From positions 1-56,759 of the forward strand of contig CAIQWD010000021.1 of the NCBI GenBank assembly GCA_903875445.1: a stretch of 56,759 bases of DNA, in the 5' to 3' direction. Shown here piece after piece: positions 1 through 2,909 of the stretch. The stretch's first letter is position 1. Each line of letters starts with the position of its first letter. The DNA is from an uncultured delta proteobacterium (GTDB taxonomy: Bacteria > Desulfobacterota > Desulfobulbia > Desulfobulbales > Desulfocapsaceae). The translations under genes and the position numbers were made by a program. Under the pieces are notes generated by a model. That model saw nothing but the letters and a program-made list of their open reading frames with translations. It ran no database searches and was not told where the DNA came from.

Positions 1-39
1 ATCCGTCTCGTTGGCTGCCCTGGAATTATAAGGAAAACT

Positions 40-285
40 TCACCTCTCCCGCTTGTTGAGCGAGATCCAGCACCAACTCCCCCACCGGACTTTACCAGCT
101 ATTGTACCTTCATGATAGGCAGGCTTGCCGAAAGGACACGATTTATCGACCTGCTGCGATGAATAAAGATTGTAAATACCCGGTCTTAATTTGCCGGCCT
201 TTCCCACTTCCTGAATTTTCCAAACAGCATCTTCTTCTATTTCGACAATCCGTTGGCCATTCATCACGATTACTCGCAGCTTCAT
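40..285 (-). CDS. small protein downstream of the KorA-KorB fusion, family uncertain
   Basis: 81 residues, starting 15 nt after the KorA-KorB stop codon with an AGGGG-type ribosome site, so it is very probably co-transcribed with it. The central segment GIYNLYSSQQVDKS and then YHEGTI faintly recalls the KfrB-type domain found near korB on IncP-like replicons, but I cannot assign the family. The last 20 residues, rich in W and basic residues, do not continue that resemblance. Another frame stays open from about base 100 to the window edge, so the gene may be frameshifted or simply short. It is probably a real gene of the integrated element with no assigned function. Confidence 0.45.
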   Translation of the reverse strand: MKLRVIVMNGQRIVEIEEDAVWKIQEVGKAGKLRPGIYNLYSSQQVDKSCPFGKPAYHEGTIAGKVRWGSWCWISLNKRER

Positions 286-300
286 GACAGGAACCCCTTT

Positions 301-1371
301 TTATTCTTCAATTATCGCTACAAGCTGCATCTGTGAAAGATCAGCTGCGAACTCATTCTCGTCGTCCTCATACCTCAACCAAGTGTATCTGGGAGTCGGG
401 TGTATACGCGTGAGAATCAGGCGGGCAAGCCTCCCCTCATATTTCACTTGTACGTGAAGGACTCTCTTGGTTTTCCTTTCAGGAGATTTCTGATGAGGTT
501 CTTTGTTATTTTCATAATCAACATTTTCTGCCTCAGAGGGATTCTCGATGGATCCTTTAACATCCAAAAATTCACGAAGCAGCCGGACAGAACCCCTTGT
601 GATCTCCTGAGTATCATCAGCCAGCCAGAAAACAACCTCTTGAGGATTCCTTTTGTGAGCTGTCACAAGGTCGTTAATCACGGTTACGTCAGTTGCTCGG
701 CCACTGTTATAGGTTGCGGCTATAGCGGGTGGTAAATTGAGAAGCGCATAATGATGCGTGACAAAGGTTGGTGATTTGCCAATCTCCTTGGCAATATCCT
801 TCATTTTCTTCCCTCTGGCAACTTCTCGGCCGATGAATTCCGCAATCTCCGATGCGGTTAATTCGTTACGCTGCAGATTCTCGATTATTTGGTCGATCTC
901 ATCGTAATTGTCGTCGATAAAGGCGGGAATCGTTGTGTAGCCGGCAATTCTGGATGCACGATACCGGCGTGCTCCATGGTTGATGATATAACGGTTTTGA
1001 TTGTCGGAATTGTGGCGGATGGAAATGGGAGATTTTACCCCACGAGAGCGGATGGTTTCAGCAAGATCATTTAAGCTTTCTTCAGAAAAACCGGGATTGT
1101 TATCTTTGCGGGGTTGATTGGGATCCTCATCTATCAGTTCCAGATCAATATTGAGAGGCTCTGCAAAATTTCTGACAGGTTTGTTCAAAGCTGAAAATAC
1201 ACGGCTCACAGCTTGGGAAACAGCCCCTTTTGATATTCCAAGTTCGGCTGCAAATTGTGACTGGGATTTCCCCTCGACCAGCACGCCTCTGGCTATATCA
1301 ATAGTTTGCCGGCCAATTTTCAGCTCACCGATGATTTTTTTGAACTGAGCCTCGGTTAATCTTTTTTTCAT
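301..1371 (-). CDS. korB: KorA-KorB fusion repressor (IncP-type TrfB/ParB-family global regulator)
   Basis: 356 residues if started at the ATG at 1371 (GAGG just upstream; the family match begins at MKKRLTEAQF). Residues 1-62 match the DNA-binding half of RK2 KorA/TrfB (ARGVLVEGK, then the helix-turn-helix AAELGISKGAVSQAVSRV at about 41-58). Residues 75-272 match RK2 KorB: IDEDPNQPR, GVKSPISI, the ParB nucleotide motif GARRYRAS (133-140), ENLQRNEL (164-171) and the KorB helix-turn-helix region (DVTV, TRGSVRLLREFL). An acidic linker (about 273-300) is followed by a KorB-like C-terminal domain (303-356, LHVQVKYEGRLARLIL, WLRYEDD). KorA's own C-terminal dimerisation domain and KorB's N-terminal region are both missing. 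It is expected to bind operators and repress element genes, perhaps as a CTP-dependent clamp like KorB. It lies downstream of, and overlaps, the KleE-like gene. Confidence 0.88.
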   Translation of the reverse strand: MKKRLTEAQFKKIIGELKIGRQTIDIARGVLVEGKSQSQFAAELGISKGAVSQAVSRVFSALNKPVRNFAEPLNIDLELIDEDPNQPRKDNNPGFSEESLNDLAETIRSRGVKSPISIRHNSDNQNRYIINHGARRYRASRIAGYTTIPAFIDDNYDEIDQIIENLQRNELTASEIAEFIGREVARGKKMKDIAKEIGKSPTFVTHHYALLNLPPAIAATYNSGRATDVTVINDLVTAHKRNPQEVVFWLADDTQEITRGSVRLLREFLDVKGSIENPSEAENVDYENNKEPHQKSPERKTKRVLHVQVKYEGRLARLILTRIHPTPRYTWLRYEDDENEFAADLSQMQLVAIIEE

Positions 1372-1597
1372 CATCCTCATAGGCAACCATAACAAATAGT
1401 ACTGTGAGCAGAATGAATGCGCCAATAAAACGATAGCCAGGATGTCTGTCTGGAGTGTCCCAGTAGACGAGCATCAAGACAAACTGGAAAAGGCAATAGG
1501 CAATCCCCACCTTTTCGATGAGTGGGTATGCAAGCACAAGGATAAAATACAAAAAACGGCCGATACCTTTTAGTATTTTTACCATACTCAACCTCAT
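1325..1597 (-). CDS. KleE-like small membrane protein
   Basis: 90 residues with a GGAG site 8 nt before the ATG, lying inside the integrase 3' end. There are two hydrophobic segments: about 9-45 (ILVLAYPLIEKVGIAYC and onward) and about 60-73 (AFILLTVLFVMVAY), with a WDTP motif between them. The arrangement of a TM region, F-Q-F-x-x-M-x-x-x-W-[DN]-T-P, a short loop and a second TM resembles KleE, a stable-inheritance protein of IncP plasmids. The assignment is from memory of the family and is moderate. It begins 6 nt after the integrase gene ends and overlaps the start of the KorA-KorB gene by 47 nt in another frame, suggesting one transcript int-kleE-korAB. Confidence 0.6.
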   Translation of the reverse strand: MRLSMVKILKGIGRFLYFILVLAYPLIEKVGIAYCLFQFVLMLVYWDTPDRHPGYRFIGAFILLTVLFVMVAYEDDEKKINRGSVQKNHR

Positions 1598-1602
1598 CGG
1601 AT

Positions 1603-2664
1603 CTACTCCAATCCCAAAGAATTGATCCCCTCCACAGCCTTCAATTTGTGATCATTGAGCAGATGGGTGTAACGGAGAACCATCTGCAGAGTCTTATGGC
1701 CTAAGATCTCGGCCAGTGTCCTGATGTCCACCCCAGACATAAGGAGATGGCTGGCTGCCGTATGGCGCAGGTCATGCAGGTGAACGTCATCAAGTCCCGC
1801 TTTGGCTCTGGCTGTTGTAAAAGAGCGTTTGAAATAGTGGCAGGGGACATAGGTGATCTCTGCTGAATCCATCCGGCTCTTAGGGAGAAAAACATACATA
1901 TCCTTTGTCGCTCCTCCCGGGCGCATGGAACGAAGTGCGCTTTCAGCCATCTTCGTGAGAGGCACATAGCGCATATCAGTCTTTGTTGCTTGGAGTTTGA
2001 CCAGCCGAGCATCCAGATCCACATCCCCCCATCTCAAGCCGGCGGCTTCACTCGGGCGCATCCCGGTATGCATCATGACCAGAAGGTATGGGTAGAGCTT
2101 CTCGTTTTTACTGGTCTTGGCACAATCCAACAGCCTTTGAGCCTCTTCCTTGGTCAGAAACCGTGTACGGCCGTTTCGGATCTTGGGTCGGCTCACTTTC
2201 CGGACCGGGTTTTCAACTGCCAGCCCCCATTCCCGGCTGGCGATATTGAACATATGTGAGAGCAGGGCGAATTCCTTCTGAATCGTCGAAGGCGAGATAG
2301 TTTTCATCCGGGCATCACGGTAGGCAGCGAGCCGTTGAGCGTTAATGGATGACAAGGCAATCTCCGGGCCAAAGCCGTTGAGAATCGCATGCACCGAATC
2401 CCGGTCGCGGCGTTCCGAGTTCGGCCTTTTGGTCGTTGATACCTGCTCCAGATATCTGTTCAAGACTTCGGCAAAGGTGAGCTTCTCTGCAGGGCGGGCG
2501 TCCTGATAGCGCCCCATCCGCATTTCCTTTTCGATGTCGGCAGCCCAGGCTTTCGCTTCACCTTTGGTGTCGAAAGTCCTTGCCAGCGGTGCAAAGCCTT
2601 TCATTCGAACTGTGGCCGTATATGTCGTTCGTTTCATTCCTTGACGGGTCTGAATGCGCGCCAT
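1603..2664 (-). CDS. int: tyrosine recombinase / phage-type integrase
   Basis: 353 residues from the ATG at 2664 (GGAG 8 nt upstream). The longer open frame to 2781 runs through the repeats next to the tRNA and is unlikely to be translated. It has an N-terminal arm-type DNA-binding domain (about 1-60), an SAM-like core-binding domain (about 62-160) and a catalytic domain with the full tyrosine recombinase set: R203 (TGMRPSEAAGLRW), K228, H297 and R300 (HLHDLRHTAASHL), H323 (LGHKT) and nucleophile Y332 (LRYTHL). It lies immediately downstream of tRNA-Arg(UCG), reading away from it, the standard arrangement for an island integrated at a tRNA 3' end. The KleE-like and KorA-KorB genes follow with almost no spacing. 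Confidence 0.93.
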   Translation of the reverse strand: MARIQTRQGMKRTTYTATVRMKGFAPLARTFDTKGEAKAWAADIEKEMRMGRYQDARPAEKLTFAEVLNRYLEQVSTTKRPNSERRDRDSVHAILNGFGPEIALSSINAQRLAAYRDARMKTISPSTIQKEFALLSHMFNIASREWGLAVENPVRKVSRPKIRNGRTRFLTKEEAQRLLDCAKTSKNEKLYPYLLVMMHTGMRPSEAAGLRWGDVDLDARLVKLQATKTDMRYVPLTKMAESALRSMRPGGATKDMYVFLPKSRMDSAEITYVPCHYFKRSFTTARAKAGLDDVHLHDLRHTAASHLLMSGVDIRTLAEILGHKTLQMVLRYTHLLNDHKLKAVEGINSLGLE

Positions 2665-2696
2665 GACCGAGACTCCAAGCATTTTTTTGAGTAAAT

Positions 2697-2718
2697 TTTT
2701 GTTCCACTTTTGTTCCAC
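2697..2718. repeat. exact 11-bp tandem repeat, candidate integrase arm-type site
   Basis: Two perfect copies of TTTTGTTCCAC lie between the integrase start and tRNA-Arg(UCG). Direct repeats of this size next to int and the attachment site are typical of arm-type sites bound by the integrase N-terminal domain. That role is inferred from position. Confidence 0.5.
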
Positions 2719-2780
2719 TGTAATGTCAATTAATGCGAAAAGAAAGCAAAAAATGTCAAAGTGGAATGGAGCAAAATGCA

Positions 2781-2824
2781 AAAAAGAAAGGGGTTAATCA
2801 GTTGAATTCTCTGATTAACCCCTT
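2781..2824 (-). terminator. rho-independent terminator of tRNA-Arg(UCG)
   Basis: A 14-bp perfect stem (left arm 2788-2801, right arm 2811-2824, loop of 9 nt, GGGGTTAATCAG type) is followed on the minus strand by a T-rich run (complement of 2781-2787). It begins 9 nt after the tRNA 3' end. Confidence 0.85.
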
Positions 2825-2832
2825 GAATTTAT

Positions 2833-2909
2833 TGGTACACCCGGAGGGATTCGGACCCCCGACACCCGGATTCGAAGTCCGGTGCTCTATCCAGCTGAGC
2901 TACGGGTGC
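2833..2909 (-). tRNA. tRNA-Arg (anticodon UCG)
   Basis: 77 nt including an encoded CCA. The acceptor stem is GCACCCG/CGGGTGT with a G-U first pair, the D arm contains AGCTCAGCTGGATAGAGC, and the anticodon stem CCGGA/TCCGG encloses the loop CTTCGAA, giving UCG. Its 3' end is the probable attachment site of the element to the left, whose integrase starts 169 nt away. Confidence 0.96.

Follow-up and report, generated by a model that had tools for sequence, protein, structure and literature searches.

We found that in an uncultured delta proteobacterium the DNA-binding half of KorA and the repressor KorB are joined in one open reading frame, korA::korB (301..1371, minus strand, 356 aa, N-terminus MKKRLTEAQF). 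The frame lies close to the end of contig C21 of a draft assembly (117 contigs, 95.33% complete); this contig of 56,759 nucleotides, analysed as a whole, is hereafter called the window. In the data searched so far the joined frame is unique, and by its sequence it is most likely a variant of the known KorA/KorB proteins that represses transfer genes as a clamp of the KorB type. In RK2 the sliding ring of KorB is caught by KorA, a protein of its own, and weak repression becomes very strong repression (excerpts of PMC11790492). A natural protein that carries both parts makes two ideas testable: that the ring may itself bear a DNA-binding brake, and that CTP-driven closure may activate a pair of HTH heads. 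A route is suggested, too, by which a partition protein may turn into a pure regulator after its element has integrated and no more partition is required.

Architecture of the fusion protein

Pfam profiles place KORA/TrfB at residues 5-64 (E 3.8e-20, profile positions 1-60 of 84), followed by ParB_N, KorB and KorB_C in this order, with all four of the four domains above the Pfam cut-offs. A sequence-only reading of the window had proposed the fusion and a separate search of its halves; searched in this way, the N-terminus was again assigned to KORA and the rest to ParB_N/KorB/KorB_C, and in a sequence search against solved structures the three parts matched KorA, RK2 KorB and the KorB C-domain. 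The structure of the fusion was predicted from a 25-row alignment with a mean pLDDT of 87.7 and a pTM of 0.54, a modest value at which the placement of the head relative to the clamp is not fixed. The KorA-type HTH head (residues 1-63, 1183..1371) comprises helices 7-16, 21-31, 37-44 and 48-63, with block pLDDT values of 87-94 over residues 1-60; its predicted residues 1-65 superimpose on KorA of the KorA-OA crystal 5clv with an rmsd of 0.9 Å, and the structure comparison gives 59% identity to RK2 KorA over 66 residues. Behind a short linker (residues 64-70, 1162..1182, pLDDT 69 for block 61-70) follow the ParB/CTPase N-domain (residues 71-167, 871..1161) and the KorB operator-binding domain (residues 168-278, 538..870), which in the model fit KorB with an rmsd of 2.5 Å over residues 71-278. 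A disordered linker (residues 279-302, 466..537, pLDDT <50 for residues 281-297) leads to the C-terminal dimerisation domain (residues 303-356, 304..465), recognised by the KorB_C profile and superimposable on the KorB C-domain 1igq with an rmsd of 1.1 Å. All these parts are encoded on the minus strand. Pfam, the solved-structure search and the superposition thus agree that the fusion is real.

The sequence-only reading was also right that the KorA dimerisation domain and the KorB N-terminus are lost, as judged from profile, alignment and structure. The KorA portion ends at about residue 63, where the profile stops at 60 of its 84 positions and the frame runs into KorB; the C-terminal domain for dimerisation and KorB docking, with its Y/F84, is absent. 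In RK2 KorA a flexible linker occupies residues 66-69 and the dimerisation domain comes after it (PMC4889941, in part), and Y84 docks on KorB F249 (PMC11790492). By structure comparison the KorB part begins at fusion residue 71, equivalent to RK2 KorB residue 52, while by sequence comparison the match starts a few residues before 52. When the structure alignment is extended, fusion residue 66, three residues past the last head helix of the predicted structure, takes the position of KorB S47. The alignment shows that the N-terminal IncC-binding tail of KorB, where the IncC-interacting peptide sits (PMC11790492), is missing, and the disordered linker before the C-domain is shorter than the 53 residues predicted for RK2 KorB (same source).

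The equivalents of five key KorB residues (R117, N146, T211, R240 and F249) are all retained: R136, N165 and the motif GARRYR in the CTP site, T230 and R259 at the positions of T211 and R240, which we take to be operator contacts, and F268 at the KorA-docking F249. R117 and N146 of KorB are described with CTP-site roles (PMC11790492). The head has kept nine of ten invariant columns, with W59 replaced by F, when compared with 24 other distinct KorA heads, of which 23 keep all of theirs; its recognition helix (GAVSQAVSRV) is largely preserved. Identity is 69-72% to KorA of two relatives, L009 and L010, and the differences from the korA of L009 fall mostly on third codon positions (0.24/0.19/0.55), a bias that is probably for the most part older than the fusion.

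Genomic setting

The fusion gene belongs to a compact minus-strand array, int-kleE-korA::korB-kfrB', that adjoins a tRNA-Arg gene (tcg, 2833..2909, minus strand, ARAGORN), the presumed attachment site of the element; a perfect 14-base inverted repeat (2788..2824) is presumably the tRNA terminator. The tyrosine integrase (1603..2664, minus strand; Phage_integrase E 1.5e-33) is followed by an N-terminally short kleE (1325..1597, minus strand; PF17394 KleE E 6.1e-10, profile positions 44-107 of 114), which overlaps the fusion gene by 47 bases. Since the OA/OB-bearing stretch upstream of korA is gone, the fusion gene is probably read together with int and kleE. The sequence-only reading had suggested a compact control switch for a chromosomal island; the setting, with integrase and tRNA genes close by, is confirmed. 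A search for a far attachment site gave one 40-base match of 83% on contig C112, without a tRNA gene.

On the other side, only the N-terminal part of kfrB is left (140..285, minus strand; 62.5% identity to R751 KfrB over 48 residues, about 56-59% to that of locus L011, others weaker), truncated by an insertion sequence. The end of this element, which we take to be IS66-type, fills positions 1..139, with the boundary judged from aligned copies, and the contig ends there. Elsewhere in the genome it has 16 matches of 67-148 bases with 91-100% identity and six shorter ones of 23-40 bases. The longer copies lie mostly at contig ends, with right-hand ends in two variants, and probably account for part of the assembly fragmentation. 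A C-terminal part of kfrB was noted at C71:18829-18996, followed by a molybdopterin-binding-domain fragment. Joining C21 and C71 through kfrB was rejected: the C71 part stands behind a different insertion sequence, and C71 carries transposase genes and a tRNA-Glu gene. A target duplication of the insertion sequence was likewise discarded as a link, as the sole zero-mismatch site, on C60, belongs to an end of the same type as the one in the window and cannot be the other flank.

KORA has no match in the genome besides the fusion, and the KorB-like matches are the fusion itself and one ParB-like protein on C99 with 36% identity. The ParA (IncC) of a ParABS partition system is not encoded next to the fusion, and at E 1e-3 IncC had no match in window positions 1-2900, on C71 or on C32, in line with the sequence-only reading, which saw no incC beside the gene; the absence of a partition role, which it deduced, is plausible. 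Stops in the nested incC1 frame were considered as proof of the loss and dropped: the window has two in its second alternative frame, and 12 of 28 other korA genes have them as well.

Transfer genes and operators on contig C32

A second contig of the same genome, C32, carries IncP-type transfer genes: trbA, trbB, more trb genes, traG, traI, traJ, traK, traL and traM. Their names follow from gene order and from resemblance to relatives (for traK, traL and traM also from annotation), and TrbE, TrbB, TraG, TraI, TraJ and TraL exceed the NCBIfam cut-offs. OB with at most one mismatch occurs at three places genome-wide; the reversed pattern gives 27, and about five would be expected by chance with uniform bases. 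As the count of three is below both figures, only the positions of the sites carry weight for function. An exact OB lies at C32:45666 between traJ and traI, and a one-mismatch OB at C32:360 upstream of trbA; the positions agree with those in nine (traJ-traI) and 11 (trbA) relatives, which were chosen for having OB at that position. The third site, one-mismatch and OB-like at C58:12408, has no IncP-like gene in the surrounding 3 kb and is probably due to chance. C21 and C32 may belong to one element.

The scan for both operators, also suggested by the sequence-only reading, returned OB at places shared with relatives and no close match to OA in the stretches covered. The genome has a single copy of the OA core TTTAGCTAAA, which falls within an ATP-synthase-like gene cluster; the reversed pattern occurs 22 times. 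With at most one mismatch OA is absent near the fusion and on C32; with at most two there are no sites in window positions 1-2900, none on C71 and one poor match on C32. In five of the 11 relatives compared, OA (at most one mismatch) and the trbA OB start 33-39 bases apart; C32 is without this OA. OB is absent from window positions 1-2900 even with three mismatches. At this threshold the window as a whole has seven OB and eight OA matches, none of them in 1-2900, against shuffled means of 11.83 and 14.95, and these matches were rejected as operators. Pairs of half-sites were also considered as a possible novel operator of the head, and nothing except OB itself was found near the OB sites.

TrbA of C32 possesses a C-domain of the KorA type, in which F takes the place of Y84. 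According to PMC2680271, available in part, Y and F are interchangeable at position 84, KorA and TrbA each cooperate with KorB, and the TrfA promoter of RK2 is under KorA and KorB control. A search for TrfA gave no match in a run in which the controls of that family were silent, too. At the contig end upstream of trbA (L123, positions 11-96) we noted about four 22-base iteron-like repeats of the GGGGGCATAACAGTCACACTA type, reminiscent of IncP oriV iterons. The region between the traG-side and traI-side genes (L124:275-17824, C32:20275-37824) holds cargo, among it a DNA methylase, an SNF2/helicase protein, a ResIII protein with endonuclease domain and a PHP/AAA ATPase; three of the cargo frames resemble the Desulforhopalus KorB locus L042, and the whole is perhaps a defence island.

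Relatives and search for further fusions

For comparison we used 48 KorB-related loci on genome contigs. A fused korA-korB frame was found by domain search in none of the 48. Separate korA genes are present at 28 loci (profile E <1e-30), 24 of them with incC and four (L034, L036, L037 and L038) without intact incC; most relatives with a separate korA have OA or OB upstream of it. The other 20 loci show no korA at E <1e-30, with weak KorA-like matches in other frames at L043, L044 and L051. The sequence-only reading had proposed to look in other genomes for the fusion and for the absence of incC; among these loci the fusion does not recur, and incC loss recurs at loci that still have separate korA and korB. 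Remnants of IncC were detected at L034, L037, L038 and the Variovorax plasmid locus L119, where the C-terminal remnant was seen by eye only, and a weak match at L036; part of these matches falls in the frame nested in korA. At one further locus, in a Kiritimatiellae MAG (L022:3316-6047), the order is kleE-korB-kfrB, an exact OB immediately precedes the korB frame, and a distant integrase match lies nearby; korA and incC were not found at this locus.

In the KorB tree the fusion has a long branch (1.08) and a weak placement, by path nearest to KorB of L010, R751 and L009. The 11 rows without neighbouring incC require eight changes, a number reached or undercut in 76 of 500 shuffles; the majority of forks is weak, and among these rows L043 and L044 have another ParA-ParB-like pair nearby. 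A common origin of incC loss was therefore not retained, and the pattern is consistent with repeated loss without proving it.

A family search through 93 genomes, including that of the fusion, showed no other place beginning before query residue 40 among the places listed. The host falls into one family with genome G047, whose KorB locus was identical to the Desulforhopalus vacuolatus locus L042 over the stretches compared, which makes the host most likely a member of the Desulfocapsaceae. In a phylum sample of 395 genomes (E 1e-25) the fusion's own genome was the only match and none of the 394 others was KorB-grade; the sample lacked Desulforhopalus G047 (E 1.1e-67 in the family search), so that cases in unsampled genomes can be missed. 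Viral contigs gave no match with a single-sequence query and three distant ones with an alignment query. With residues 1-130 as query, 677 plasmid records matched, two of them with a single place covering >80% of the query: a Variovorax record, rejected as a fusion for its separate adjacent korA and korB genes, and a second one that is not among the matches listed (best 40, spread 60 of 677). Residues 21-110 matched 657 records, 18 with a single place above 80%; two of these are among the 60 matches listed, Variovorax again and Pandoraea, the latter with ordinary separate korA, incC-like and korB genes. A plasmid-borne fusion is possible. Of 40 phage records, none among the 20 matches listed was annotated or covered in a fusion-like manner, and literature searches of open-licence PMC papers brought up no KorA-KorB fusion among the papers listed.

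Origin and proposed function

We consider it somewhat more probable than the opposite that the protein is a KorB-type CTP clamp that acquired a KorA head in place of the IncC tail by deletion and represses transfer genes without a partition role. We infer deletion, clamp activity, repression, head pairing and TrbA docking as follows. In an integrated IncP-type conjugative element a deletion would have removed the last third of korA, incC and the 5’ end of korB and joined the two frames. The fusion would then load at the two OB sites of C32, upstream of trbA and in the traJ-traI interval, and the transfer genes would be repressed. In RK2 the N-domains of KorB close the ring, a step that CTP and OB promote and that was followed by S47 crosslinking (PMC11790492). 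As the junction is at KorB residue 47, a meeting point of the clamp halves, CTP-driven closure may bring the two attached heads together and so stand in for the lost dimerisation domain of KorA. The sequence-only reading had the fusion use KorB dimerisation, which is plausible and is refined here to clamp closure. Since RK2 KorB S47C is crosslinked to about 20% even without CTP (PMC11790492), head pairing need not be strictly CTP-gated. TrbA, with its KorA-type C-domain, could still dock on the fusion at the residue equivalent to F249. A KorA dimer spans its operator (PMC4889941) and the operator layout of ArdK is set by the dimerisation part (PMC9723621, in excerpts), so the newly joined pair of heads may recognise another site instead of OA, or no site at all.

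The head may also have no task. In such a deletion scar the protein would work as KorB and carry the KorA head as a jobless passenger, which a recent fusion or the harmlessness of the head would suffice to explain; we regard this as possible but on the unlikely side. The lack of a close OA on the stretches read, with the single core in the ATP-synthase-like cluster, and the W59F exchange point to a passenger, as do the interruption of kfrB by the insertion sequence and the loss of incC in other relatives without any fusion. The neighbours of the fusion are decaying (kfrB cut, kleE short), and it is known from one genome. Against a passenger, the head has 69-72% identity with its KorA counterparts at L009 and L010, with differences mainly at third codon positions, and the frame has stayed intact next to the decaying genes. 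The opposite extreme, a self-contained CTP-gated two-headed repressor whose closure pairs the heads and whose ring, with its own brake, stops at a new kind of site with no KorA in trans, is a tentative idea to which we give rather little credence.

The sequence-only reading had the protein bridge KorA-type and KorB-type operators. For this the head would have to read KorA-type operators on element parts missing from the assembly, and the largely kept recognition helix and the fragmented assembly (117 contigs, 95.33% complete) leave some room for it; with OB at two positions on C32, the OA core once in the genome and in an ATP-synthase-like cluster, a trbA region on C32 that lacks the OA seen in five of 11 relatives 33-39 bases from OB, and TrfA not found, albeit with silent search controls, we judge bridging improbable. 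That the frame is a non-functional remnant or an assembly artefact is very improbable: a close contig end, decayed neighbours and a single draft assembly would allow it, but the join is in-frame at a domain boundary, five of five key residues are kept and the OB sites on C32 are preserved.

Comparison with known systems

The clamp repressor that we favour can be set beside several known proteins. The ParB-CTPase domain fusions surveyed in PMC12704722 likewise join this fold to other domains, and the excerpts of that survey name no KorA fusion. ArdK of IncW/IncN shares the KorA-type HTH and, in contrast to the fusion, keeps a KorA-type dimerisation domain, on which its operator layout depends; joining to a ParB domain is not described in the part of PMC9723621 available. 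The loci L034, L036, L037, L038 and L119 are comparable in having the order korA, korB, kfrB without intact incC, and L034, L037 and L119 also have kleE before korA, as is the case at the fusion locus, but in all five korA and korB are separate genes; L034, L037, L038 and L119 have OB and OA upstream of korA, and L036 has OA alone. With IncP-1 KorA/TrfB the fusion has the HTH domain in common; it lacks the C-terminal domain used for dimerisation and, via Y84, for KorB docking, and no close OA was found. From IncP-1 KorB (RK2, R751) it differs by the KorA head in place of the disordered N-terminal IncC-binding tail, by the shorter linker to the C-domain and by having no incC beside it; the CTPase N-domain, the operator-binding domain, the C-domain and the five key residues are common to both, and OB is found at trbA and traJ/traI in IncP-1 as on C32.
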